Source: a virus
DNA: 53,868 nucleotides
Direction: 5' to 3' (one strand)
IMG/VR virus record: IMGVR_UViG_3300022200_008215
Span: 1-53,868 of that record
Shown: positions 1 to 47,159 of the stretch, piece by piece
Position numbering within the stretch: the stretch's first letter is position 1
Layout of the letters: every line of letters starts with the position of its first letter
The notes under the pieces: generated by a model
Seen by the model: only the letters and a program-made list of their open reading frames with translations
What the model was told of the DNA's origin: nothing
Database searches by the model: none
Program-made: the position numbers and the translations under genes

Positions 1-331
1 TTCATTTGCTGATGCAGATACGTGTGTAGAGGTAGCTGGGTCATAAGCACCTGATACAATCCTAGTAACTAGTACTGAGCCTCCTCCTTGTTGAAAGTAG
101 TTTTTTACTGCTAGCGAAGTCATGAATTCATAACTTGTAGAGGCTGATGTAAATGTAACTCCAAATTTTCTAACATAATCGTTATATGAAGTAACCAATG
201 TTGGAGTTTCTACCGGTCCTTTAACTGTCGGTCCAATAATTGCTGCACCTGCTACTACTGGAGCTGGTTGGATAAATGAAATGTCATTTTCTCTTGTGAA
301 TACACCTGGAGAGATAATTGATTCTGCCATG
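1..331 (-). CDS. 18: Tail sheath protein (gp18-like), N-terminal part only
   Basis: The first 110 codons of a gene that runs off the left edge. Reading the minus strand from the ATG at 331 gives a start of MAESIISPGVFTREND, then a segment rich in the AAIIGPTVKGP and NDYVRKFG type patterns. SPGVxxxEND followed by a small-residue-rich GP..GP stretch is the usual N-terminus of T4-family contractile tail sheath proteins, which polymerise around the tail tube. An xFQQGGGSVLVTRIV segment near residue 84 also fits sheath proteins. It lies downstream of a hairpin region and of a TATTTATA motif 29 nt before the start. In T4 gene 18 directly follows gene 17; here it sits far from the terminase, beyond the glycan operon. 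The C-terminal two thirds or more are not in the window. Confidence 0.85.
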
Positions 332-426: not shown

Positions 427-430
427 GGAA

Positions 431-450
431 GAGAAGGGGCAAACCTTCTC
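431..450 (-). terminator. Possible terminator after the 88-aa gene
   Basis: GAGAAGG (431-437) and CCTTCTC (444-450) form a 7-bp stem with a 6-nt loop. On the minus strand it is followed by TTCCTATTTAT, only weakly U-rich, and on the plus strand by CTTTTCCTTT. It is a weak candidate for ending transcription before the gp18 unit. Confidence 0.35.
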
Positions 451-496
451 CTTTTCCTTTAACTTTCTTCTCGACTGTCTTATACTTTCCTGTAAG

Positions 497-763
497 TTAC
501 TTTTTGGTATTAGTTATCTCAGGTATGAATTCTCCTTTTTGTAAATTAATAGAACCTTTCCCATAAGCCTCCTCTAAGGAGCTAACCAACTCTCTTTCTG
601 CTCTACGAGTATCTTCTAAATAGTTTATCGCATTATCCCGACGTTTTTTTAAATCTAATTTTACCAATTCAACTTGCCCTAGTTCAACCTGTACTGCTTG
701 TATTCTAGATTCGATGTTAACAATTTTATCAATTTCTTCTTTTTTTAACTTTTTGTTTGCCAT
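497..763 (-). CDS. Small coiled-coil protein, function unknown
   Basis: An 88-residue, highly charged protein beginning MANKKLKKEEIDKIV. Residues about 5-70 read as a continuous amphipathic helix with hydrophobic residues at heptad spacing, suggesting a coiled coil; the C-terminal 20 residues are less regular. I do not recognise a family. It sits alone between the methyltransferase that ends the glycan operon and gp18. A TATTTATA motif lies only 2 nt before the ATG, too close to serve as the promoter of this start. A second type of upstream motif lies about 25 nt before the ATG (788-806). The position next to the sheath gene may mean a tail or assembly role, but that is only context. Confidence 0.65.
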   Translation of the reverse strand: MANKKLKKEEIDKIVNIESRIQAVQVELGQVELVKLDLKKRRDNAINYLEDTRRAERELVSSLEEAYGKGSINLQKGEFIPEITNTKK

Positions 764-787: not shown

Positions 788-806
788 CCTAATGTATGAA
801 ATTATT
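788..806 (-). promoter_or_regulatory. Class-2 upstream motif (before 88-aa gene)
   Basis: Minus strand reads AATAATTTCATACATTAGG, 24 nt before the ATG of the 88-residue protein and overlapping the end of the methyltransferase gene. It matches the motif found before the glycan operon (6696-6713) and before 31572, 23772 and 12195. Confidence 0.3.
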
Positions 807-1992
807 TTTTAAAATCCAACTTCTCTAATTTAGGGAACGGGATAATGTACGGTATACCTAGGTGTTTTGTCTTCTCTATAATAATATCTGCAAAATTCCA
901 AGCAAATATAAGGATAGCTTCTGGTTTATCCTCTATGAGATGTTTTGGTGGTAATATTGGTATTTTACCATTTGCTGTCCATTTATTAAACCTCTCTGGT
1001 GATTCGTCTATAATATACTTTATTAGTGTTTGATCTAAATCTAGCAAGCTAGTCACTACATTAGCTCTACCTGAAGCTCCGTAACCTGCTATTTCTAAAT
1101 GTTTATTTTCTTGTAGGTAGTCGTATAACTGTTTTAGAGCTGTTGAGATACTTTTATTAAAATTAGAAAGATCTAGGTAGGGTTTCTCTTTTTTTATTTG
1201 GTTCAACACTTTCTGACTACTTTTTCCTGTTCCTATAACTACTCTTATCGACCCAGAATGAATAGGGATTCTTTCAAAATTTAAGATAGTTAATCCATGT
1301 GTTTTAAATAAGTTTTGAAGGCTTGTTAGGGTATAGTAGTATAGGTGTTCGTGATACATAAAGTCAAACTGAAATTTCTCTATTAGGTCAACTAAGTATT
1401 GTACTTCTATAATAAGTTTCCCTCTTGGTTTTAGTCCTATCTTTATCCCTTCTATTACCTCTTGAATATCTTCTATATGAGCAAAAGAATTACTAGAAAG
1501 TATATAGTCAAAGCAGTTATTCAGTGAGTTCTCTTTAATAAAATTACTATTAAAAAAATCATCTACGATAAGAAGATCTTTGTCTCTACCTAACTTTATA
1601 ATATTTGTTGCTGGGTCTACCCCTAGTGCTGTAATTCCTTTTTCTTTAAGAGCATAAAGCAAAGGCCCGTCATTACATCCAAATTCTAAAATAATATCCC
1701 TGGAGTCTATATTCTCTTTTTCTACTAACCAGTTTGCATACTGATTAAAATGTTTTTGCATACTGATAGAGGAAATATATCTGTAGTCTTTAAATAACTC
1801 TTCTGGGTTAATTAGGTAATTAGTTTGAACTAGTTTACAGTTTTCGCACATTATTACTGTAAGAGGGTACTTTGCTACTTTTCCTGGGGTTGTAGGGAAG
1901 CTACCGGCAAGAGGTACTTCTCCAAAATTATAAACTTGGCTGAAGTCTGTTCCGTTACAGCTTGCGCAGTTATCTCTCTTGTGGTTATGCAT
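802..1992 (-). CDS. Sugar C-methyltransferase, TylCIII/NovU type
   Basis: A 396-residue SAM-dependent methyltransferase with the three-part plan of deoxysugar C-methyltransferases. An N-terminal zinc-binding domain has CxxC pairs at 9/12 and 49/52, a Rossmann SAM site lies at 101-110 (ILEFGCNDGP), and a C-terminal domain holds the IAGYGASGRANV-type motif near 302-313. The YHEHLYYY segment (213-220) matches the catalytic Tyr/His/Glu region of this family. Known relatives methylate C3 or C5 of NDP-4-keto-6-deoxysugars, so the likely substrate is a nucleotide sugar, or less likely a glycan already on a protein. Its start overlaps the preceding glycosyltransferase by 8 bp, so it is the last gene of a tightly coupled glycan operon. 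Full length for the family; no key residue seems missing. Confidence 0.85.
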   Translation of the reverse strand: MHNHKRDNCASCNGTDFSQVYNFGEVPLAGSFPTTPGKVAKYPLTVIMCENCKLVQTNYLINPEELFKDYRYISSISMQKHFNQYANWLVEKENIDSRDIILEFGCNDGPLLYALKEKGITALGVDPATNIIKLGRDKDLLIVDDFFNSNFIKENSLNNCFDYILSSNSFAHIEDIQEVIEGIKIGLKPRGKLIIEVQYLVDLIEKFQFDFMYHEHLYYYTLTSLQNLFKTHGLTILNFERIPIHSGSIRVVIGTGKSSQKVLNQIKKEKPYLDLSNFNKSISTALKQLYDYLQENKHLEIAGYGASGRANVVTSLLDLDQTLIKYIIDESPERFNKWTANGKIPILPPKHLIEDKPEAILIFAWNFADIIIEKTKHLGIPYIIPFPKLEKLDFKK

Positions 1993-2941
1993 AGTTGATA
2001 GTGGTAAAAGTTTCTGTGGTGTAAGCTGTGGTTAAATCAAAATACTTGTTATTATAGGTATACCCTATAGAAGTTATTTCTGGGAGATTTTGTATTATAT
2101 CTGTTTCTATTAGGATTTCTTGATCATTTATATTTAAAGTTAGTCCCTGTGCTTTGTTATCATATATTACAATTCTGGGCGTAAAGGAGTTTGTATCTAT
2201 TCTCCTATGTGTGTTATTATTCTGTAAAAATATTTTAAATTCTGGATGTTCACTTTTATTGAAAAGTTTTGGATATTCAAAATTAGCTTTATCCTTGATA
2301 GGCTTTTCTATAATAAGATAATCAAAAATTGAAACCATATGCTCCCAATACTGTTCTACATCTCTATACTTTCCATTCTTGACGGACATATGTGTATCGC
2401 ATGTATATTCATCTTTTAGTAAGTTTGGTATAAGTCTCTGTAGAGAATGTTTAGAAAGTATATTAATCATAAGACTAGGAAACCTATATCCTTGAGGGTG
2501 TTCGTTATCCTGTACTTTACTACATACCAAATCTGCTGGCTCTCTTAACTCGTGTAAGATTTCTTTAGTAAACTCTATATCGTAGTTAATAAACGAATAG
2601 TGAGTGTAATCTAGAGGTAGAGTTAATTTTGAAGCATTTATAATTTGATTTATAACTGTCCATCCATAGTCAGGTGCGATATTTTGGAGTTTAATGCTTT
2701 GCCCTGCTACTTCTATATACTTCCAGTGTACCATTCCTCGAATCGGGAATGTAATTATAGGATTACTCTTATCGTATATAAAATAGTCTATTAGGTTTTG
2801 AATTTCTACATTAACCGGGATATGAGATACAACAAGTATATCGTGATTACTTTGCTTGAGAATAAGTATATTTTCTTTAAGAATCTCTTCTTTTTCAGGA
2901 GTATTGCAGTGACACAGTAGTATAATTAAGTTATTTCTCAT
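1985..2941 (-). CDS. Glycosyltransferase-like protein (GT-A type, unclassified)
   Basis: A 318-residue protein starting MRNNLIILLCHCNTPEK. The opening beta strand, then LKENILILKQSNHDILVVSH, is the beginning of a GT-A nucleotide-diphospho-sugar fold as seen in many viral and phage glycosyltransferases. NYDIEF near residue 119 lies where a metal-binding DxD-like motif would be expected. The C-terminal 70 residues are beta-rich and I do not recognise them. It overlaps the 1248-residue multi-enzyme gene by 11 bp upstream and the C-methyltransferase by 8 bp downstream, which suggests translational coupling in one glycan pathway. The donor and acceptor cannot be told from sequence. Glycosyltransferase-like is fairly sure; the precise family is not. 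Confidence 0.65.
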   Translation of the reverse strand: MRNNLIILLCHCNTPEKEEILKENILILKQSNHDILVVSHIPVNVEIQNLIDYFIYDKSNPIITFPIRGMVHWKYIEVAGQSIKLQNIAPDYGWTVINQIINASKLTLPLDYTHYSFINYDIEFTKEILHELREPADLVCSKVQDNEHPQGYRFPSLMINILSKHSLQRLIPNLLKDEYTCDTHMSVKNGKYRDVEQYWEHMVSIFDYLIIEKPIKDKANFEYPKLFNKSEHPEFKIFLQNNNTHRRIDTNSFTPRIVIYDNKAQGLTLNINDQEILIETDIIQNLPEITSIGYTYNNKYFDLTTAYTTETFTTINYA

Positions 2942-5900
2942 AACAGGCTATAAATGGAGTAATATCTTTTGATTCTTGATATCTTTGGATATCTTCGTAT
3001 TCTATATAATTTGTATTAGTGTTGTTACTTTTAAACCAGTCTCCGTTATTATTAAGAAGCTGGTCTATAATTTTTTTCTCCGATCTATATAATTTAAGAA
3101 TTTCTTTTTTCTTATCCAAGATATCTTTTGTTAATTTTTTTTCCGATTTACCGAATACATGCAGTATATCGTCTAAGATACCTTTATTAATATACTGTTT
3201 AATAAAGTTAAATACCGATCTATGTTGTGGATGTCCGTATTCCCCTATAGGGTTATGAGTAACTATTTTTTCCCAGTTTCTGCTTAGCAGAGTACATTCA
3301 ATATTGTAGACTTCTTCAGTTGAATATATACTATCCTCATAATCGTATATCTCCCAAGCACCTACTTTAAGTTCTTTCATTACTTTTTTAAACTCCTTAC
3401 TCCTTATCTTATTCGACTTATTAGTTAGGCATATTACCTTGTATTCTGGTCCATGTTTGATTAATTCTCCTCCTCCAAATATCATTTCATCATCTGGGTG
3501 TGCAATTATCATTAGTTTGCTTATTTGATAGTTCTCAAATGCTTTTTGTAGTGTATTAGCGTCTTTTTTCTTTATGGAAGGATCTGGTCCGTGAATAAAG
3601 TAGGGTTCTAGTTCATACTCATCGTACATAACATCAAATCCTTGTTTTAAAAAGTAATCAGATACGTTCCTCTCTTCTTTACTACTATAAAAATTATTCC
3701 AAGTAACCGGTAAGTAGGCAGTCTTATTTTCTAACCATAAGATACTGTTTGCAACTCTTTCTTCAGAAAATGCATTATCATCTACATATATCTTTATGCT
3801 GTAGTTGTTTAATTCTTTATTCCACTCTAAACATTGTTCAAAAAACGGCTTACTCCTTTTATCATAAAAATAGAAGCCTGTAGCAATTATCCTTTCATTA
3901 GGATTACGTTCTATTTTTTTTATATCTGCCAGCTCTACTCCATACGCACCAGTTAACTTTAAGTTGCCGTGTTTTTTCCACTGATTTATATCCTTATGAT
4001 AGTATCTCATAAAGAGAGGATAATCTTGCAGGAGAGTTATATGTTTAAGAGATTTGTCTATGTGTTGAGTTACAAAGGCATCCCCGTCTAGCCATGCATA
4101 GGTACTATAACCTTCCTTTAGTGATTGTATACTCGCAATATACTTAGCAAAATAGATAGAAAAGTCCTTATTAAATAAATCCGGTTCTCCTTGTTGTATT
4201 GGAGTAGGCTTTTTTCTGTAGTCTATTCTCCTATTGATAACATTAGGAAGATCAATAGTAGAATCACAATTGAACCCATATACAATTAACTTGTGTTTCG
4301 AGTATTTTAAAAGACTTATTGCTAGAACCTCTATCATTTTTAAATACTCCTCATCTCCTCCTGTAATCCAGGTGAAGCTGTTCGACTCTATTTTATTTAA
4401 TATACTAAGTGTATTATTATAGACCTGCTCTACTGTGATTGATTTTTGACATATATGCTGCAGATCAGTTCCCCGATGTCTTGGACACCAGTTCCAGTCT
4501 CCTGCATCAAATACATACTTCTTATCTACCCAGCAGTTATTACATACTGATTTATTTTCTACCTTGGTCAAATTAGTAGCAAATTCATATCCAAACGGAA
4601 TGAAATTGTTAATCATTAAGGTGTGTTTTCCTAACGCCCAATTCATCCAGGATAGTCCAGAGCCTAGTCCAATGAACAGTTCTGCATGATGCAAATAGTT
4701 CCACGTTTCTTCCCAGTTTAATTTCTCTTTATTAATAATACAAGGTCCTTGAAATCCCTCATATGATAAGTTAACTACTTTATACCCGTCCTTATGTAAC
4801 TTTTTTGCAAGAGCTCTCCATGATTCATGTGTCCACTCTTTTAACCCGGCTGTAGATCTGGGACCGATACATATGTACTTTTGTTTAATAGGCCGTTCTT
4901 TAGGGGTAAAATTGATACCGTAGTTCACTTCCCTATAAGGGAGTCCTAGTATGTCAGTTGCTGTTTGGATTAATGGAACTGTATTTGCCTGATTAGGATT
5001 TTTACTTCCAGTATCCCATTTATTATCTGTCTTAAACCAACCTACCCTGTAGTGTGCATAAGCAGGGCAAGGGGTATTAGGTTCTATAAACGTTATATCC
5101 TTATATGCTTCTAGTCCTTCAAACCATTCGTTATGGAAAGTAGAAACTACAATATCGCAATTATTTTTCTTTTTGAATTCTGCAACCTGAGGCATCCAGG
5201 CAATAGTATCCCCCACTGATTTAGAATCAAAGGATACTTTTACTTTCCTATTTTCAAGAGCGAATTGATGTATTACCTCTCCATCTACCTTTATAGTCCA
5301 TGGAATATAAAATTCTTTCTTACATTTTGTCCACATTCCATTTTTTATGGTAGAGGAATGTACTATTTCATTATTTGTTGAATTTATAAACTCTACAAAG
5401 TACTCTCTGTTTCGTTCTCCTGTTATCTCTACCTTAGGTCCGTACTCGAAGGAGACTTCTATAGTATTGTTGGGCAATTCTCTATATAGTTTAGTTAGTT
5501 CTTTATTAGCAAGCTGTGCTGCATTATCCCATGTAAATTGTTCTCTAATTAATTCAGATTCTTGTAACGCTTTTTCTCTATACGTGCTGTAATTTGTATA
5601 GACTTCCCTCATGACCTTCTTTAAGTCTTCAAAGTCGGGTTCATAAAATTCTCCTTCCATAAGGTGTCGGTGGAATGAATTGTATTCTCCAAACTGTGCT
5701 GGTACAACTTCTTTAATTTTAACTGGGTGTCCTTTCCCTTGGGCAAATTCAAGTTGTCCACTGCAGTTCGAATAAATCGAAGGAGTGCCGCATGCCATAG
5801 CTTCTATGAGCGGCAAATTCCATCCTTCAGATCTAGCACAAGATAAAAATACATGACCTTTTTGTAGGTACTTAATATATTCTTCACTAGTAGGAAAGTG

Positions 5901-6677
5901 TTTTACTTTTACTCTCGAATCTTTCAGATTATAGTTTTCTAATCTCTCTTCTGTAGAAGTGAATCCATCTTTGGCAAAACTATTATCGACTGATACAATT
6001 AAATCAACTGGTTCCTCCTTGCTAAATTCCTGTAAAAATGATTCTATTATTTCTTTAGTTGCTTTTCTGTAATCCCATCTTCCGAATAAGATAAACTTAA
6101 ATCTACTATCTTCATATTCCGGTAGAGTAGAAGTACTATCTGGTTTAAATATCGAGCTATCTACTGCTTCAGGGATTACCTTTACTTTACTAGGATTAAT
6201 GCCTTGTTCGATAGTACATTCTCTCTGCCAATTCGAAGCAACCCATATTTGATTATATTCCTTTAGTTTCTCAAAAAACTGCTTTGGTTGACGGGTGGTC
6301 TCCCATACATTGTAAGCTACCTTAACTCCTGTATACTCTTGGTAGAAGTAGTGGTGGTCGGTTTCATTCAATACAATATTGATATCGTGATCAATACTAT
6401 TTTCGAAATCCGTATAGATGGGGAAGTGGTGTATTTGATTTTTATCATCCCATAGTGTTTGTTCATATAGGAGAGTTTTATCTAGGGTATCTATATAGTG
6501 TTCATTATCGTGGGGAGTATCGGTATACCCATTCCATTTCGATCCTATAGTAAAATTACGTACTTTTATTGGAAGGTATTTTGATAGTGCTCTGAAAAAG
6601 TTACGAGTATGGTTATTGTACCCTGTTGTTCCTATATAGCTACCGTGAGCAAAGATATTAGGCTTTTTGCTACCCAT
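2931..6677 (-). CDS. Four-domain glycan enzyme: GT4, TibC-like heptosyltransferase, DxD glycosyltransferase, PIG-L deacetylase
   Basis: A 1248-residue fusion. Residues 1-400 are a GT4 (GT-B) glycosyltransferase with the E284-x7-E292 motif (SEGWNLPLIEAM). Residues 405-765 resemble the BAHT/TibC protein O-heptosyltransferases: FDSKSVGDTIAWMP (483-496), GPRSTAGLKEW (605-615) and a four-cysteine finger C712-x2-C715-x15-C731-x11-C743, like the iron finger of TibC. Residues 766-1048 form a GT-A-like domain with DxD at D864-G-D866. Residues 1053-1200 are a PIG-L/LmbE de-N-acetylase with AHPDDE (1059-1064) and HPQH (1149-1152). TibC-family enzymes add heptose to Ser of autotransporter adhesins. Here the acceptor may be the phage fibres. 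It follows a terminator and heads a three-gene operon with overlapping starts. Each domain looks intact; the joint substrate is unknown. Confidence 0.85.
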   Translation of the reverse strand: MGSKKPNIFAHGSYIGTTGYNNHTRNFFRALSKYLPIKVRNFTIGSKWNGYTDTPHDNEHYIDTLDKTLLYEQTLWDDKNQIHHFPIYTDFENSIDHDINIVLNETDHHYFYQEYTGVKVAYNVWETTRQPKQFFEKLKEYNQIWVASNWQRECTIEQGINPSKVKVIPEAVDSSIFKPDSTSTLPEYEDSRFKFILFGRWDYRKATKEIIESFLQEFSKEEPVDLIVSVDNSFAKDGFTSTEERLENYNLKDSRVKVKHFPTSEEYIKYLQKGHVFLSCARSEGWNLPLIEAMACGTPSIYSNCSGQLEFAQGKGHPVKIKEVVPAQFGEYNSFHRHLMEGEFYEPDFEDLKKVMREVYTNYSTYREKALQESELIREQFTWDNAAQLANKELTKLYRELPNNTIEVSFEYGPKVEITGERNREYFVEFINSTNNEIVHSSTIKNGMWTKCKKEFYIPWTIKVDGEVIHQFALENRKVKVSFDSKSVGDTIAWMPQVAEFKKKNNCDIVVSTFHNEWFEGLEAYKDITFIEPNTPCPAYAHYRVGWFKTDNKWDTGSKNPNQANTVPLIQTATDILGLPYREVNYGINFTPKERPIKQKYICIGPRSTAGLKEWTHESWRALAKKLHKDGYKVVNLSYEGFQGPCIINKEKLNWEETWNYLHHAELFIGLGSGLSWMNWALGKHTLMINNFIPFGYEFATNLTKVENKSVCNNCWVDKKYVFDAGDWNWCPRHRGTDLQHICQKSITVEQVYNNTLSILNKIESNSFTWITGGDEEYLKMIEVLAISLLKYSKHKLIVYGFNCDSTIDLPNVINRRIDYRKKPTPIQQGEPDLFNKDFSIYFAKYIASIQSLKEGYSTYAWLDGDAFVTQHIDKSLKHITLLQDYPLFMRYYHKDINQWKKHGNLKLTGAYGVELADIKKIERNPNERIIATGFYFYDKRSKPFFEQCLEWNKELNNYSIKIYVDDNAFSEERVANSILWLENKTAYLPVTWNNFYSSKEERNVSDYFLKQGFDVMYDEYELEPYFIHGPDPSIKKKDANTLQKAFENYQISKLMIIAHPDDEMIFGGGELIKHGPEYKVICLTNKSNKIRSKEFKKVMKELKVGAWEIYDYEDSIYSTEEVYNIECTLLSRNWEKIVTHNPIGEYGHPQHRSVFNFIKQYINKGILDDILHVFGKSEKKLTKDILDKKKEILKLYRSEKKIIDQLLNNNGDWFKSNNTNTNYIEYEDIQRYQESKDITPFIACYEK

Positions 6678-6756: not shown

Positions 6757-6786
6757 TAAAAAAGAAAAGGCCCTAGTGGACCTTTT
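6757..6786 (-). terminator. Rho-independent terminator before the glycan operon
   Basis: On the minus strand AAAAGGTCC and GGGCCTTTT form a 9-bp stem (one G-U pair) with loop ACTA, followed by CTTTTTTA. It ends the transcript coming from the fibre and 57-residue genes and separates it from the glycan operon. Confidence 0.8.
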
Positions 6787-36513: not shown

Positions 36514-38076
36514 TTATGTTATTTGTACCCAAGTACTGTCTGGATTAAAGTATATTATATTATTACCATCATCTATCATATTTCCTACAAGTCTAACTAT
36601 ATTACCACTCCCACTAGGAACAGCTGTTTGTAAATCACCAGCAGTAGTAGAAACATATAAATTATTTCCTTTTCCTGTTTGTGTAAATACAGAACTCTTA
36701 GCCCAACCTCTTAAAAGTATCCCATTACTAGATGCAGTGCCCATAGCAATACCTAACATTTTTGTTCCGTATGTTGCATTGTTTGCGGAAGCTCTAAACC
36801 ACCCAGAATTCAGTCCTGCTGTAGTAAATACAATTAAATCCCCTTCTGCTATTGTACCATTAGTAGTATAAAAAGTTCCATAAAATGTAACTTCACCAGA
36901 ATTATCGGGAGTACCAGTAATTCCTGAGTCATATACTAGATATGAACCTTCATCAAATTGTAAGTATTTTCCAGTAAATGTTAAGGCTGATTCTACTTGT
37001 AGATTATTAGTGGCGTTGATATAAGTTAAGACACCGTTAGCAGTTGTACCAGTAATGCTTCCTGCAAAAGAACTGCCTGAAGTGCCACTTGTACCAGATG
37101 TTCCTGATGATCCTGAAGTACCAGAGGAACCGGAAGTACCGTTTATTCCTGAAGTTCCTGATGAACCTGAGTTACCTGAAGTACCAGAGGAACCGGAAGT
37201 ACCGTTTATTCCTGATGTTCCTGATGAACCTGAGTTACCTGAAGAACCTGATGTTCCGTCTATACCTGAAGTACCAGAGGAACCGGAAGTACCGTTTATT
37301 CCTGAAGTTCCTGATGAACCTGAGTTACCTGAAGTTCCTGATGAACCTGAGTTACCTGAAGTTCCTGATGAACCTGAAGTTCCTGAAGTACCGTTTATAC
37401 CTGAAGTTCCTGATGAACCTGAGTTACCTGAAGTTCCTGATGAACCTGAAGTTCCTGAAGTACCGTTTATTCCTGAAGTTCCTGATGAACCTGAGTTACC
37501 TGAAGTTCCTGATGAACCTGAAGTTCCTGAAGTACCGTTTATTCCTGAAGTTCCTGATGAACCTGAGTTACCGGAAGAACCTGATGAACCTGAAGATCCC
37601 GAAGAACCGGAAGAGCCTGAAGTACCTGAAGAACCTGAAGAACCGGAAGAGCCTGAAGTTCCGGAAGTGCCTGAAGTAGCGGCTGCTTCTTTAGTTCCTA
37701 CTTTTCCGTTACTGTCTATGACTAGTACAGTATCATCAGCTATAGCAGTTAAGTTTGGTAGTTTTAAATCTGATCCGGATACAATTAGTGCTAGTGCACC
37801 AAAGGTTCCCATAGTTACAGTGTTGTCTGCAAATGCTTCTATTACCGGAAGTCCGGCTATGGTATTTACCGAGAATAAAGAATCAGATAAATCATCGTCT
37901 ATTGAAAATAATCTTCCGTTATTTCCATCTACTGCAAATATGTTGGTTCTTCCTTCTGATCCGGAACCCTGTAAAACGATTGATCCTGATACATCTTGTG
38001 TTATGGTCTCTACGTAGTTCAAAGAACTGGTAAAGGACATAATACTTGATCCTGGGGTTATTCTAATATCTGCCAT
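36514..38076 (-). CDS. Collagen-like repeat fibre protein
   Basis: A 520-residue fibre. Residues 1-130 are a beta-rich N-terminal part that ends with IADDTVLVIDSNGKVGTKEA. About 134-335 are unbroken Gly-X-Y triplets, almost all GTS, GSS, GNS, GIN or GID, which would form a collagen-type triple helix even without proline. Residues 336-520 are a C-terminal beta domain, probably the knob. The junction ADDTVLV-D-xGxxGTKEAAATSGTSG is shared with the 783-residue fibre at 41562, so the two are paralogues with different tips. Over half of the repeat residues that are not Gly are Ser or Thr, so the rod is a rich potential O-glycosylation target. Role: tail-fibre or surface adhesin. Confidence 0.8.
   Translation of the reverse strand: MADIRITPGSSIMSFTSSLNYVETITQDVSGSIVLQGSGSEGRTNIFAVDGNNGRLFSIDDDLSDSLFSVNTIAGLPVIEAFADNTVTMGTFGALALIVSGSDLKLPNLTAIADDTVLVIDSNGKVGTKEAAATSGTSGTSGSSGSSGSSGTSGSSGSSGSSGSSGSSGNSGSSGTSGINGTSGTSGSSGTSGNSGSSGTSGINGTSGTSGSSGTSGNSGSSGTSGINGTSGTSGSSGTSGNSGSSGTSGNSGSSGTSGINGTSGSSGTSGIDGTSGSSGNSGSSGTSGINGTSGSSGTSGNSGSSGTSGINGTSGSSGTSGSSGTSGTSGTSGSSFAGSITGTTANGVLTYINATNNLQVESALTFTGKYLQFDEGSYLVYDSGITGTPDNSGEVTFYGTFYTTNGTIAEGDLIVFTTAGLNSGWFRASANNATYGTKMLGIAMGTASSNGILLRGWAKSSVFTQTGKGNNLYVSTTAGDLQTAVPSGSGNIVRLVGNMIDDGNNIIYFNPDSTWVQIT
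37075..37676 (-). repeat. Coding tandem repeat (Gly-X-Y triplets, fibre 2)
   Basis: About 600 bp of 9-bp-phased coding repeats (two codon sets for GTS/GSS/GNS) with longer units that contain GINGTSG or GIDGTSG about every 25-35 residues. Unit copy number is likely to vary by slippage or recombination. Confidence 0.85.
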
Positions 38077-40914: not shown

Positions 40915-41562
40915 TTATAGTCCGAATCTTGTTTTAGTTGCGTTATAGTTTTGGAGTATTTCTTGTGCTGATAATGTTCGGTTATATATTTGCACTGTTG
41001 ATATTTTCCCATCAAATAAGTTAGAAGAATCTGTATAAGCTGCTATTCTAACCGCAGTACCTCCTGTAAATGTTGCTGTACTTGAACTAGTATTTACTAA
41101 ATTTCCGTTTAGGTATAATTTCCAACCTGATGTTGTATTAAAAGTAACTGCACCGCACCACCATTTTCCTGTCATCACTCCTGCATTATAAGCAACTGTA
41201 CTCCAAGAACCATTATGTCCCGCTTGTAAAGTAGTGTTGGTTCCAGCCATCCAAAAAGCGTGTTGTCCGTCACCACCTCCACTAATAATATTATTAGTAT
41301 TACCGTCCGGGTTAAACCATGCTATTTTGGTGTAAGACGTTGTTGAGAGCGACACGCTACTTAATTGACACCAGTCGTTGCTTCCATCAAATACAATACT
41401 TCTGTCTGAGTAAGAAGGCCCATTTATTAAAGTTCCATTATTCCCATTCCCGCTTACATCATTCCAAACCGTCCCTGATCCTGGATATGAATTTCTATCA
41501 GCAGCATCTAGATTAAGTATCAATCCGTCCCTAACTATTTTTGGTCCATGAATTTCAGCCAT
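40915..41562 (-). CDS. LamG-like lectin-domain protein, single domain
   Basis: A 215-residue protein made of one concanavalin/LamG domain with almost no extra N-terminus. The start MAEIHGPKIVRDGLILNLDA, followed by SYPGSGTVWNDVSGNGNNGT and DRSIVFDGSNDWCQL, is a standard phage LamG opening. The end is the STVQIYNRTLSAQEILQNYN motif. It differs from the two larger lectins by lacking the aromatic N-terminal module. Its start shares one base with the stop of the collagen-like fibre, so the fibre and this lectin are translated together and may be assembled together. Probable glycan-binding tip or accessory. Confidence 0.8.
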   Translation of the reverse strand: MAEIHGPKIVRDGLILNLDAADRNSYPGSGTVWNDVSGNGNNGTLINGPSYSDRSIVFDGSNDWCQLSSVSLSTTSYTKIAWFNPDGNTNNIISGGGDGQHAFWMAGTNTTLQAGHNGSWSTVAYNAGVMTGKWWCGAVTFNTTSGWKLYLNGNLVNTSSSTATFTGGTAVRIAAYTDSSNLFDGKISTVQIYNRTLSAQEILQNYNATKTRFGL

Positions 41563-43913
41563 TACTTATCAAATTCTGTAACTAGTTTTTCTATATCTTT
41601 TCTTTCAGCAAATACTGAGTAGTAGCAGTCTATTGATGTTTTAGATCCTACTATAATACCGTTTGAGGTTACTTTTTCAACCCATAAATCTTGTTTCTTC
41701 CCTATTGAAGTTAAGTTTACAGTAGTTGTATTCTGGTCTACTAGAGCATGCCAGTGATCTGGTAATACAATGGTATTCTCATTGGTTAACCTTCCTCTTA
41801 CGTATACTGAATGTTCTGGTCCCTCTAATACTCCGTATTGAAGTTTTTTACCTTGTTTGGTTGGGTGATCAATAATAAATGATTTTACAGTTGCTGTAAG
41901 TGTTCCTGTTACATTTAAAATTGAACCGTCAAATGTTAAGTTTGATTCTACCGTACCTGTTCCATCACCATCATAGGTTATAACTCCATTTGTAGTTGTT
42001 CCTGTTAATGGAAGTATCCCACTGGTACCTGATGATCCGGAAGAACCTGATGAGCCTGAAGTTCCTGAAGAACCTGATGAGCCTGAAGATCCGGAAGTAC
42101 CGTCTATACCTGAAGTTCCTGAAGAACCTGAGTTACCGGAAGAACCTGATGAACCGGAAGATCCGGAAGTACCGTTTATACCTGAAGTTCCTGAAGAACC
42201 TGAGTTACCGGAAGAACCTGATGATCCGGAAGATCCGGAAGTACCGTCTATACCTGAAGTTCCTGAAGAACCTGAGGTACCTGAAGAACCTGATGAACCG
42301 GAAGAACCTGATGTTCCATCTATACCTGAAGTTCCTGAAGAACCTGAGTTACCGGAAGAACCTGATGAACCGGAAGATCCGGAAGTACCGTTTATACCTG
42401 AAGTTCCTGAAGAACCTGAGCTACCTGAAGAACCGGATGAACCGGAAGAACCTGATGTTCCATCTATACCTGAAGTTCCTGAAGAACCTGAGTTACCGGA
42501 AGAACCTGATGATCCGGAAGATCCGGAAGTACCGTCTATACCTGAAGTTCCTGAAGAACCGGAGGAACCGGAAGAACCGGAGGAACCGGAAGAACCTGAT
42601 GTTCCATCTATACCTGAAGTTCCTGAAGAACCTGATGTTCCATCTATACCTGAAGTTCCTGAAGAACCTGATGAACCGGAAGAACCAGAGGAGCCGGAAG
42701 AACCGGAGGAACCGGAAGAACCTGATGTTCCATCTATACCTGAAGTTCCTGAAGAACCTGAGGAACCGGAAGAACCTGATGAACCGGAAGAGCCTGATGA
42801 TCCGGAAGAACCTGATGTTCCTGAAGAACCTGATGTTCCATCTATACCTGAAGTTCCTGAAGAACCTGAGGTACCTGAAGAACCTGATGAGCCTGAAGTA
42901 CCGTCAGTACCACTTGATCCTGAAGAGCCTGAAGTTCCAGATGTACCGGCAATTTGTCCAACAGACGTTATGACGTAAGAATAATTTGAACTACCTTCAG
43001 TATAAAATATAACATCACGTGATGGTGCATCTAAATTAGTTAAATAAATTCTACAAATCATTCTATTCGTAGGGTCTATTGAAATTGTTGTTAATACAAT
43101 ATCAACGTCTACTTGCCCTGGATTAACTGCATCTACATAAGGTATTTTAAAAATATTTGAAGATATTGAAGAACCTATCGGAGTACCTGAAGAATCTGTC
43201 AATTGTATTTCAACGTAAGCTTCAACATCCGCATTTGCTGCTGGTAATAAACAATATACAATAAAATTTTGAAAACCAGCTGGTATAATTGAATAACCAA
43301 GCTCTGGTGATAAAAATGATTCAACCAAAACATCAGATGCACTACCACTTAAAGATGTTAATTTTGTTACTTCACCAGTTGTTGTTGGTACCAAACTTAA
43401 TTCTTTATAACCAGAAATATCTGAATTTATACTTTCATTAAAATAATATATTTGACCTCTAGATATACCGTCAACTCCGCTAGAACCTGATGAGCCAGAG
43501 CTTCCGCTTGTACCATCTGTACCGGATGTTCCATCTGTCCCGCTAGTACCATTAGTTCCTGAACTACCTGAAGTACCGTTGGTTCCACTAGTTCCGTTTG
43601 TGCCTGATGTTCCTGAAGAACCGGAAGTACCTGACGACCCCGAAGTTCCACTTGATCCTGAAGAGCCGGAAGTACCGTCTATACCTGAAGTGCCAGAGGT
43701 AGCTGCTGCTTCTTTAGTTCCTATATTACCGCTTGCATCTACTACCAGGACTGTATCATCAGCTATGGCCGGTAGATTTGTAAGTTGTAAGTTTGAGCCA
43801 GTTATACTATTTGTTATATTGATTGAACCTGTTAGTTCAATATAATCTGTTATACGGAGAGAATTTAACACAGCGTCAGATCCGCTGGTTATAACTTTAC
43901 GCCAATTAGGCAT
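41562..43913 (-). CDS. Large collagen-like repeat fibre protein
   Basis: A 783-residue fibre. The N-terminus MPNWRKVITSGSDAVLN is like that of the 283-residue fibre at 6992. Residues 73-150 are a first block of Gly-X-Y triplets (GTS, GSS, GTN, GTD). About 150-320 form a compact beta domain. About 320-634 are a second, longer block of GTS/GSS/GNS/GID/GIN triplets. The C-terminal 150 residues include HPTKQGKKLQYGVLEGPEHS then VYVRGRL and YYSVFAERKDIEKLVTE, a terminal domain shared by many T4-like cyanophage fibre proteins and probably a trimerisation or receptor tip. Its start overlaps the HNH gene stop by 8 bp. Role: receptor-binding or surface fibre. Confidence 0.85.
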   Translation of the reverse strand: MPNWRKVITSGSDAVLNSLRITDYIELTGSINITNSITGSNLQLTNLPAIADDTVLVVDASGNIGTKEAAATSGTSGIDGTSGSSGSSGTSGSSGTSGSSGTSGTNGTSGTNGTSGSSGTNGTSGTDGTSGTDGTSGSSGSSGSSGVDGISRGQIYYFNESINSDISGYKELSLVPTTTGEVTKLTSLSGSASDVLVESFLSPELGYSIIPAGFQNFIVYCLLPAANADVEAYVEIQLTDSSGTPIGSSISSNIFKIPYVDAVNPGQVDVDIVLTTISIDPTNRMICRIYLTNLDAPSRDVIFYTEGSSNYSYVITSVGQIAGTSGTSGSSGSSGTDGTSGSSGSSGTSGSSGTSGIDGTSGSSGTSGSSGSSGSSGSSGSSGSSGSSGTSGIDGTSGSSGSSGSSGSSGSSGSSGSSGTSGIDGTSGSSGTSGIDGTSGSSGSSGSSGSSGSSGTSGIDGTSGSSGSSGSSGNSGSSGTSGIDGTSGSSGSSGSSGSSGSSGTSGINGTSGSSGSSGSSGNSGSSGTSGIDGTSGSSGSSGSSGTSGSSGTSGIDGTSGSSGSSGSSGNSGSSGTSGINGTSGSSGSSGSSGNSGSSGTSGIDGTSGSSGSSGSSGTSGSSGSSGSSGTSGILPLTGTTTNGVITYDGDGTGTVESNLTFDGSILNVTGTLTATVKSFIIDHPTKQGKKLQYGVLEGPEHSVYVRGRLTNENTIVLPDHWHALVDQNTTTVNLTSIGKKQDLWVEKVTSNGIIVGSKTSIDCYYSVFAERKDIEKLVTEFDK
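42012..42952 (-). repeat. Coding tandem repeat (Gly-X-Y triplets, fibre 1, block 2)
   Basis: About 940 bp of collagen-like coding repeats with longer units of about 25-35 residues that end in GIDGTSG or GINGTSG. Gives long antisense frames of Pro/Glu repeats that are not genes. Confidence 0.85.
43464..43697 (-). repeat. Coding tandem repeat (Gly-X-Y triplets, fibre 1, block 1)
   Basis: About 230 bp of Gly-Ser/Thr-rich triplet coding repeats (residues 73-150 of the fibre), separated from block 2 by a beta domain. Confidence 0.8.
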
Positions 43914-45800: not shown

Positions 45801-47159
45801 CTATGGATTAATCTTAACCCAACCTCCGTCTGTATAGAAATACAAGTTAGGAGCACTATCAGATCCGGATACCATTAGCATTCCAGCTTCAGAACCGGAA
45901 GGAGTTGAATCTCTATTTACAAGCTGTATAATACCTGTGTAATTTCCAGTGATGTCTCCTGTATTTCCTGTTACTGTTAAGCTTTGAACAACTGCTTGGT
46001 AGTCTCTACTTGAGCTTATATTAGTTCCTCCTAGTACTACTGATCCTGTGTGTGCTGTATAATTACTAATACCCCCCACTATTGCGCTATCTCTTCCAGA
46101 TATTATGTTACTTTCTCCTCCAATAATAGCTGAGCTTATTCCTGTTGCTGTTATTATATTCTCTCCTCCTCCAATAATAGCTGCTGTGCTTCCAGATACT
46201 ATGCTTCCTTTTCCCCCGAGTAAGATTGAGCAATTCCCTAATGTCGTGCCCCCTGATCCTCCAATAGTAACTGAGTTATCCCCTGATGTGGTATTACATA
46301 TGCCGAGAGCTATAGCTCCTACTCCTGTAGCTGTGCTTCGCTGTCCGCCGGCGAGAGCATAGGTTTGTGTAGCTTTATTACATGATCCTCCTAATACTGT
46401 TGCATAATCTGCTGAAGCAGTTGCATTATTTCCCCCTATAACTGTTGAATACTGTCCTGATGATATAGAATTAAAATTAAGATTATTTGGTTTAATAGCA
46501 CCTGTGTTTGAACCTGTTTGAAAAATCTCTCCTGTTGCTGTTGCTGTTACTCCTGTTAACCCTGATCCGTCTCCTGTAAAAGATCCTGTGAAAGATCCTG
46601 TAAATGGGTTTGCTAGGGATATAAACTGTGCTGAAGATGAAATAATATTGGCAGGAATATTTGTAATTCCTGTATATGAAATTTGTCCTGATCCTGATAC
46701 TAGGTTAGATGGTAAAGTAAGACTTGTTAACCCTGATCCGTCTCCTACAAAAGATCCTGTGAAAGATCCTGTGAAAGGGTTTGTTAGAGTTATAAACTGT
46801 GCTGAGGAAGAAACGATATTAGCAGGAATATCGGTAATTCCTGTATATGAAATTTGTCCTGATCCTGATACTATATTAGGTGGTAAAGAGAAAGAAAGAT
46901 TAGTAAGTTCTGAACCATCACCTGAAAATGATCCACTAAATGAACCGCTAACTCCTGTAGTATTTATAAAATCAACATTAACGCTTGACCCGCTTATAAT
47001 TAAAGAGCCCGTAATAGATGCATCACCGTTTCTAGATCCATCCCACTCAGCTACTGCTGTTATACCTGTTAGACCTGTTCCATCTCCATAAAAACCAGCT
47101 GATGCTGATACACTACCAGTGATTATTAAGGAGTTATTTAATACGTGTTGATTAGCCAT
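45801..47159 (-). CDS. Fibre protein with YadA-head-like repeats
   Basis: A 452-residue fibre. The first 210 residues contain three copies of a module GDGSGLTxLxLPxxxVSGSGQISYTGITxIPANI and one EWDGSRNGDASITGSLIISG unit that recurs in the next fibre. Residues about 240-385 are a left-handed beta-roll-like series of xAxxIGGxNxxSxx repeats (TVIGGNNATASADYATVLGG and onward) that resemble the head domain of YadA-type trimeric adhesins. The C-terminal 60 residues end in GMLMVSGSDSAPNLYFYTDG then GWVKINP, a common fibre ending. It probably trimerises and projects from the tail. Starts at ATG 47159. Confidence 0.75.
   Translation of the reverse strand: MANQHVLNNSLIITGSVSASAGFYGDGTGLTGITAVAEWDGSRNGDASITGSLIISGSSVNVDFINTTGVSGSFSGSFSGDGSELTNLSFSLPPNIVSGSGQISYTGITDIPANIVSSSAQFITLTNPFTGSFTGSFVGDGSGLTSLTLPSNLVSGSGQISYTGITNIPANIISSSAQFISLANPFTGSFTGSFTGDGSGLTGVTATATGEIFQTGSNTGAIKPNNLNFNSISSGQYSTVIGGNNATASADYATVLGGSCNKATQTYALAGGQRSTATGVGAIALGICNTTSGDNSVTIGGSGGTTLGNCSILLGGKGSIVSGSTAAIIGGGENIITATGISSAIIGGESNIISGRDSAIVGGISNYTAHTGSVVLGGTNISSSRDYQAVVQSLTVTGNTGDITGNYTGIIQLVNRDSTPSGSEAGMLMVSGSDSAPNLYFYTDGGWVKINP

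Follow-up and report, generated by a model that had tools for sequence, protein, structure and literature searches.

The 53,868-nucleotide stretch of DNA analysed here (the window; IMG/VR virus record IMGVR_UViG_3300022200_008215) carries a gene, P0001, whose product of 1248 residues joins four putative enzymes in one chain and which lies in a cassette of sugar-related genes between structural genes of a tailed marine phage. The reading frame of P0001 is single and intact on the minus strand, with an ATG at 6677, a stop codon at 2931–2933 and no internal stop. Domains were called by Pfam, NCBIfam and phmmer searches against solved structures, and these calls, together with the reading frame and a structural model, bear out the layout read from the letters by an initial annotation: a GT4 domain, a TibC-like domain, a GT-A-like domain with a DxD motif and a PIG-L domain, with C712, C715, C731, C743, D864 and D866 at the positions given there. 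The GT4 domain exceeds the Pfam cut-offs (PF00534, 43.1 bits; PF20706, 43.9 bits; GT4 families span residues 182–388) and possesses the EX7E motif, the PIG-L domain scores 48.3 bits with PF02585 (cut-off 28.2; residues 1055–1162) and contains AHPDDE and HxxH motifs, and the core of the TibC-like domain matches the Pfam family Glyco_transf_9. No Pfam family was matched by the third domain in the Pfam scan; its DGD motif is conserved in the alignment of relatives, and the best matches of its model in the Protein Data Bank (PDB) are LgtC, UGGT and glycogenin (LgtC, E 5.6e-6, template modelling score 0.42). As this model is of modest quality (predicted local distance difference test, pLDDT, 61), the domain is considered GT-A/GT8-like with moderate confidence only. 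Full-length homologues of P0001 at 65% identity exist, so the gene is neither a chance reading frame nor a misassembly; misassembly as the origin of the fusion was also rejected on finding the same fusion in independent contigs.

The TibC-like domain scores 214.5 bits with NCBIfam TIGR04414 (hepto_Aah_TibC; cut-off 200; residues 404–755), and TibC (PDB 4rap) is its sole strong match among solved structures by phmmer (E 3.3e-34, residues 426–757), an alignment that the initial annotation had predicted. With the bacterial autotransporter heptosyltransferases TibC and AAH (BAHT family) it shares the sequence family, the catalytic residues and the four-cysteine iron finger: the catalytic base D110 and the donor residues T226, K230 and W305 of TibC correspond to D490, T609, K613 and W677, and the four cysteines align with the iron ligands C339, C342, C358 and C370, their clustering in space being predicted from the alignment with 4rap. 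Except in gapped fragments, all eight positions are invariant in 96 aligned phage and bacterial domains. Other features of TibC are missing. The arginine R286, which contacts the adenine of ADP, is replaced by T658 in P0001, and P300 is changed to Gly or Ser in the 96 domains. When 97 domain sequences were scanned for the thumb motif WNxIPxGAED, it was present in TibC only and in none of the 96 others.

From a tree of these domains it is evident that TibC and five bacterial genes from the order of Methylobacter (L197–L201) are separated from all phage and Gly-X-Ser-linked genes with a split support of 100/100, and the clade that contains the TibC domain of P0001 is a deep sister to the true autotransporter heptosyltransferases. 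Both the thumb and the arginine are kept in L197–L201, R286 being found in 6 of 6 true-clade rows; in the sister clade the β-hairpin thumb segment is shortened, two hydrophobic residues still being present at the thumb tip in most phage rows, and R286 is variable, mostly replaced in the phages. In TibC the β-hairpin thumb is required for ring assembly (PMC4358343), and without it ring assembly is not expected. Sister-clade members score 203–327 bits with TIGR04414, whereas the true-clade member L200 scores 658 bits; as the cut-off of 200 lies just under the former range and far under the latter value, the autotransporter name spreads to the sister clade. It is therefore likely that phage and Gly-X-Ser-linked bacterial proteins are named autotransporter O-heptosyltransferases through this low cut-off, and probable that they do something other than autotransporter heptosylation.

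Which gene stands next to a bacterial TibC-family gene varies with the clade. In 5 of 5 true-clade loci an AIDA-like strand-loop-strand protein is encoded alongside, whereas a Gly-X-Ser protein is encoded near the sister-clade gene in each of the 11 loci found first, within 180 bp in 8 of them, and in 4 of another 5 fetched later, at 44–157 bp. The sister-clade partners carry (Gly-Thr/Ser-Ser)n tracts and are exported, in many cases resembling lipoproteins, so that both clades resemble each other in placing the bacterial gene beside a Ser-rich repeat protein and differ in the type of partner. In most bacterial genomes searched, all or the majority of the listed Gly-[S/T]-[S/T] tracts fall within the TibC locus, a clear exception being G002 with 15 of 16 tract matches outside it; in G002, G005 and G007, Gly-X-Ser proteins away from TibC are without a TibC paralogue in the stretches fetched. 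Among 274 genomes of a class control, one had a TIGR04414 match over the cut-off; the tract matches listed for this genome lie around that gene, and among the matches listed a long Ser/Thr-tract array was found only in this genome.

Relatives are encoded by 536 viral stretches, of which 80 were kept for comparison. TibC-bearing records at least about 20 kb long were compared with terminase-matched ones lacking TibC, and Gly-X-Ser tracts were present in 20 of 33 of the former versus 0 of 11 of the latter (Fisher p 3e-4, a nominal value because viral records are related fragments). In seven loci (L036–L039, L046, L072 and L075) some 70 bp separate a Gly-X-Ser fibre gene from the start of the TibC-type gene that follows it, and the cultured phages Flavobacterium phage immuto and Microcystis phage Mel-JY01 have 0 and 17 tracts, respectively. 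Controls with whole genomes, a class, an order and terminase-matched viral records led to the rejection of chance as the cause of the linkage.

The window encodes two candidate acceptors, the tail-fibre proteins P0002 and P0003 (Table 1), P0002 being predicted as collagen-like from the match of its Gly-X-Y repeats to PF01391. Serine occupies the Y position in 86% of the triplets in the window, 89% in phage loci and 79% in bacteria, and proline accounts for less than 1%; the tracts of P0002 and P0003 contain none. No strand-loop-strand autotransporter was found beside P0001 in the window. Long plus-strand reading frames at 37055–38017 and 41996–42973 mirror the Gly-X-Ser tracts in antisense and are probably not genes.

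The cassette belongs to the late structural module: in the window as well as in L003, L010, L012, L015, L017, L023 and L024 it has fibre or neck genes on one side and the tail sheath gene on the other. P0001 and the partner gene share 11 bp, and the partner gene shares 8 bp with the C-methyltransferase-like gene; the partner model (pLDDT 89.6) resembles GT-A nucleotide-sugar enzymes. The terminator-like hairpins are weakly supported (6 found versus 4.2 expected by shuffling), and a promoter scan of the window gave matches at the shuffled expectation.

Table 1. Features of the window; the features within P0001 are listed below the gene
Feature	Positions	Strand	Basis
Tail sheath gene start, downstream cassette border, runs off window	1–330	-	phrog_23 tail sheath
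Terminator-like hairpin, cassette/sheath gap	429–452	-	hairpin scan, weak
88-aa coiled-coil-like protein, cassette end	497–763	-	reading frame and Pfam scan
Sugar C-methyltransferase-like protein (Methyltransf_13/23/14)	802–1992	-	Pfam
Partner protein, 318 aa, GT-A-like with C-terminal beta region	1985–2941	-	model pLDDT 89.6; PDB GT-A-like matches
Four-domain gene P0001, 1248 aa	2931–6677	-	reading frame and full-length homologues
GT4 (GT-B) domain, residues 1–398, EGWNLPLIE as EX7E motif	5484–6677	-	PF20706, PF00534, PF13692
TibC-like domain, residues 404–762 (N-terminal barrel region and GT9-like core)	4392–5468	-	TIGR04414 214.5 bits; 4rap
Cys4 iron-finger-like segment C712, C715, C731, C743	4449–4544	-	aligned to C339/342/358/370 of TibC
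GT-A/GT8-like domain (moderate confidence), residues 765–1046, DGD at 864–866	3540–4385	-	alignment; model matches LgtC/UGGT/glycogenin
PIG-L deacetylase-like domain, residues 1049–1248, AHPDDE and HPQH	2934–3533	-	PF02585 E 1.8e-12
Terminator-like hairpin, fibre/cassette gap	6765–6786	-	hairpin scan, weak
Fibre-like structural protein directly upstream of cassette, N-terminus like that of P0002	6992–7843	-	sequence likeness
Collagen-like Gly-X-Ser fibre P0003, 520 aa, Ser 22%	36514–38076	-	PHROG tail-fibre family
Gly-X-Y tract of P0003, 67 triplets	37069–37671	-	tract scan
Collagen-like Gly-X-Ser fibre P0002, 783 aa, Ser 27%	41562–43913	-	PF01391 E 9.1e-55; PHROG tail fibre
Longest Gly-X-Y tract, P0002, 104 triplets	42012–42947	-	tract scan
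Second Gly-X-Y tract of P0002, 26 triplets	43461–43694	-	tract scan
GT9-like protein P0006	44869–45747	-	homologue directly upstream of GT4-TibC/four-domain gene in L003, L010–L013
Fibre P0004, YadA-like IGG..N beta-roll repeats (alternative acceptor)	45801–47159	-	repeats; weak PHROG match

That the cassette glycosylates protein is well supported, and in the reading that we hold with fair confidence it is a late cassette which builds an O-glycan on serines of a virion fibre, most likely on the proline-free Gly-X-Ser repeats of P0002 and P0003, an acceptor suggested by the gene linkage. The TibC-like domain would act as protein O-glycosyltransferase and place a first sugar on the Y-position serines of the Gly-Ser/Thr-Ser repeats, TibC itself glycosylating serine but not threonine (PMC4358343); that sugar would be lengthened by the GT4 and GT8-like domains together with the partner GT-A protein, the PIG-L domain would strip the N-acetyl group from a HexNAc-type unit and the C-methyltransferase would make or finish a branched deoxysugar. 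The position of the cassette among the late structural genes suggests that fibres would receive the modification while they are being assembled. PseB/FnlA-like UDP-GlcNAc 4,6-dehydratase and RmlD-like genes are carried too in L023, so that a deoxy-aminosugar in the glycan, a plausible PIG-L substrate, would fit; genes looking similar to these are present in L015 and L017. The modification may plausibly stiffen the hydroxyproline-free repeat or alter fibre binding or recognition. Glycosylation of threonine is described as stabilising collagen (Bann et al. 2000, as cited in PMC3368898), and therefore a sugar on Ser could stiffen the helix without hydroxyproline.

Several observations weigh against this reading. 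The fibres P0002 and P0003 lie 30–35 kb from the cassette, 13 of the 33 TibC-bearing viral records are without tracts, no Gly-X-Ser partner accompanies the sister-clade gene of the bacterial locus L202, and Gly-X-Ser tracts are present in some genomes without TibC. In the long records of the four-domain members L015, L017 and L018 no Gly-X-Ser tract was found, and the acceptor there may therefore be another fibre, for example a YadA-like one such as P0004 or that of L003. Heptose is no more than a candidate donor sugar, and as R286 is replaced by T658 and variable in the clade, the donor may not be ADP-heptose. The initial annotation had proposed a multi-sugar O-glycan line on protein built around a TibC relative of the autotransporter type. 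Its multi-enzyme line, the homology to TibC and a protein acceptor, with a virion protein as the likeliest target, are retained; given the missing thumb, the missing ADP-contacting arginine and partners which are not strand-loop-strand proteins, P0001 is not a strict autotransporter O-heptosyltransferase, and the link to the distant Gly-X-Ser fibres had not been made there.

That the acceptor is instead a beta-roll or beta-helix fibre such as P0004 or the fibre of L003, glycosylated as TibC glycosylates AIDA-like passengers, with the Gly-X-Ser linkage reflecting shared fibre modules, we regard as unlikely. The YadA-like fibre of L003, which is S74-ending and lies immediately ahead of the cassette, the position of P0004 next to the GT9-like gene P0006 and the tract-free four-domain records would agree with it, but the bacterial sister-clade partners are small exported Gly-X-Ser proteins without beta-roll, and the thumb and ring features, which go with beta-helix substrates, are absent. 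Somewhat less probable still is that the enzymes act on the surface polysaccharide of the host, its O-antigen, and might for instance prevent superinfection; PMC7029224 proposes such a role for fibre-region glycosyltransferases of pelagimyophages. Polysaccharide pathways typically include GT9-, GT25- and PseB/FnlA-like genes; however, the substrate of TibC is protein (PMC4358343), the bacterial relatives occur together with repeat proteins and the cassette is placed in the late structural module. A true TibC-type heptosyltransferase, forming a dodecameric ring and using host ADP-heptose with the same chemistry as the bacterial enzymes, would agree with the TIGR04414 score above the cut-off and with the conserved catalytic residues and cysteines, but is very improbable in view of the missing thumb motif, the lost R286, the change of P300 to Gly and the low scores of the sister clade. 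Phage glycosyltransferases often glucosylate DNA (PMC12619734), but domain families, late-module placement and fibre linkage all speak against DNA modification, which we consider hardly credible.

Fibre glycosylation by this cassette can be set beside known systems. Glycans occur on capsid and tail tube proteins of mycobacteriophages, according to Freeman et al. 2023 as cited in PMC12619734, whereas fibre repeats and a TibC-like enzyme would be concerned here. BclA-type proteins of Bacillus also bear glycans on collagen-like Gly-X-Y repeats, and mimivirus, a giant virus of amoebae, modifies its own collagen-like proteins by hydroxylation and glycosylation (PMC8968730). The collagen of mimivirus is hydroxylated, whereas a serine-linked sugar in a tailed phage is proposed here, and the repeats of BclA-type proteins contain proline, unlike the proline-free phage repeats with their TibC-like enzymes. 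To our knowledge, the enzymes of BclA-type glycosylation are unrelated to TibC-like enzymes. In the host-recognition cluster of pelagimyophages, which are aquatic T4-like phages, sugar-transfer genes likewise lie with tail fibres; they are read as O-antigen modification, and neither TibC nor a link to collagen-like fibres appears in the passages covered of that paper (PMC7029224). A literature search for phage O-heptosyltransferases and phage autotransporter heptosyltransferases gave nothing relevant.

More tentatively, and with somewhat less than even confidence, an unnamed TibC-like clade of bacteria and hundreds of aquatic phages might O-glycosylate proline-free Gly-X-Ser fibres and so stabilise a hydroxyproline-free triple helix, with a multi-enzyme line for a complex tail-fibre glycan in some phages. 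If this were true, Gly-X-Ser collagen-like phage fibres would have a dedicated modifying enzyme and their chemistry would become testable, the database name autotransporter heptosyltransferase would stand corrected, a substrate switch within the TibC family would be revealed, and many aquatic phages would be likely to have sugar-coated fibres, with a bearing on host binding, immunity and biomaterials.

The fusion of the TibC domain to GT4, GT-A and PIG-L domains in phages is a further difference from TibC and AAH. The initial annotation knew of no described phage enzyme with this layout, which proves not to be unique, as the four-domain form was found in at least 10 further viral loci. The two-domain GT4-TibC form is the common one among the 80 loci kept, GT4-TibC and D3-PIG-L (D3, the third domain) are separate genes in L010–L013 and L021, and the partner protein is in other phages either fused to D3 (L022, L025) or inserted within GT-TibC genes. 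On the tree of TibC domains the four-domain state needs five changes, and therefore the genes of the pathway fuse and split repeatedly. The terminase of the window is 75% identical to that of Flavobacterium phage immuto, the nearest cultured phage, in which TibC was not found in the stretches fetched, and 51% identical to that of Mel-JY01 (L004). In Mel-JY01 GT4 and TibC share one gene with regions that resemble the partner and a methyltransferase; the TibC gene of this phage (WWT39291) bears the annotation FkbM methyltransferase. A 639-aa protein of the same phage, annotated as cytidylyltransferase-like, was considered as a possible ADP-heptose synthase and gave just a weak CTP_transf_like match.

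Some further observations concern these loci. The annotated minus-strand hypothetical protein at 739–2298 of Mel-JY01 (VPEVPSVPELPEVPR...) is the antisense of a plus-strand Gly-X-Ser fibre. In L005, from the 735 kb phage LR756501, GT4-TibC adjoins a glycosyltransferase-like protein of 1140 aa, one region of which resembles the partner, and a Gly-X-Ser protein lies nearby on the opposite strand. A second, shorter reading frame matching the TibC query (292–297 aa) follows directly 3' of GT4-TibC in L049, L056, L058, L068 and L074. APS-kinase-like and cytidylyltransferase-like genes stand directly before the four-domain gene in L023 (7370–8193), and the cassette of L003 includes a PhyH-type dioxygenase (3013–3732) adjoining a GT25 protein. 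In the window, two small genes between P0006 and P0002 (43906–44872) are homing-endonuclease-like (HNH-like and GIY-YIG-like by eye), and the fibre gene P0004 contains a 171-bp tandem duplication with 89% matches (46554–46888).
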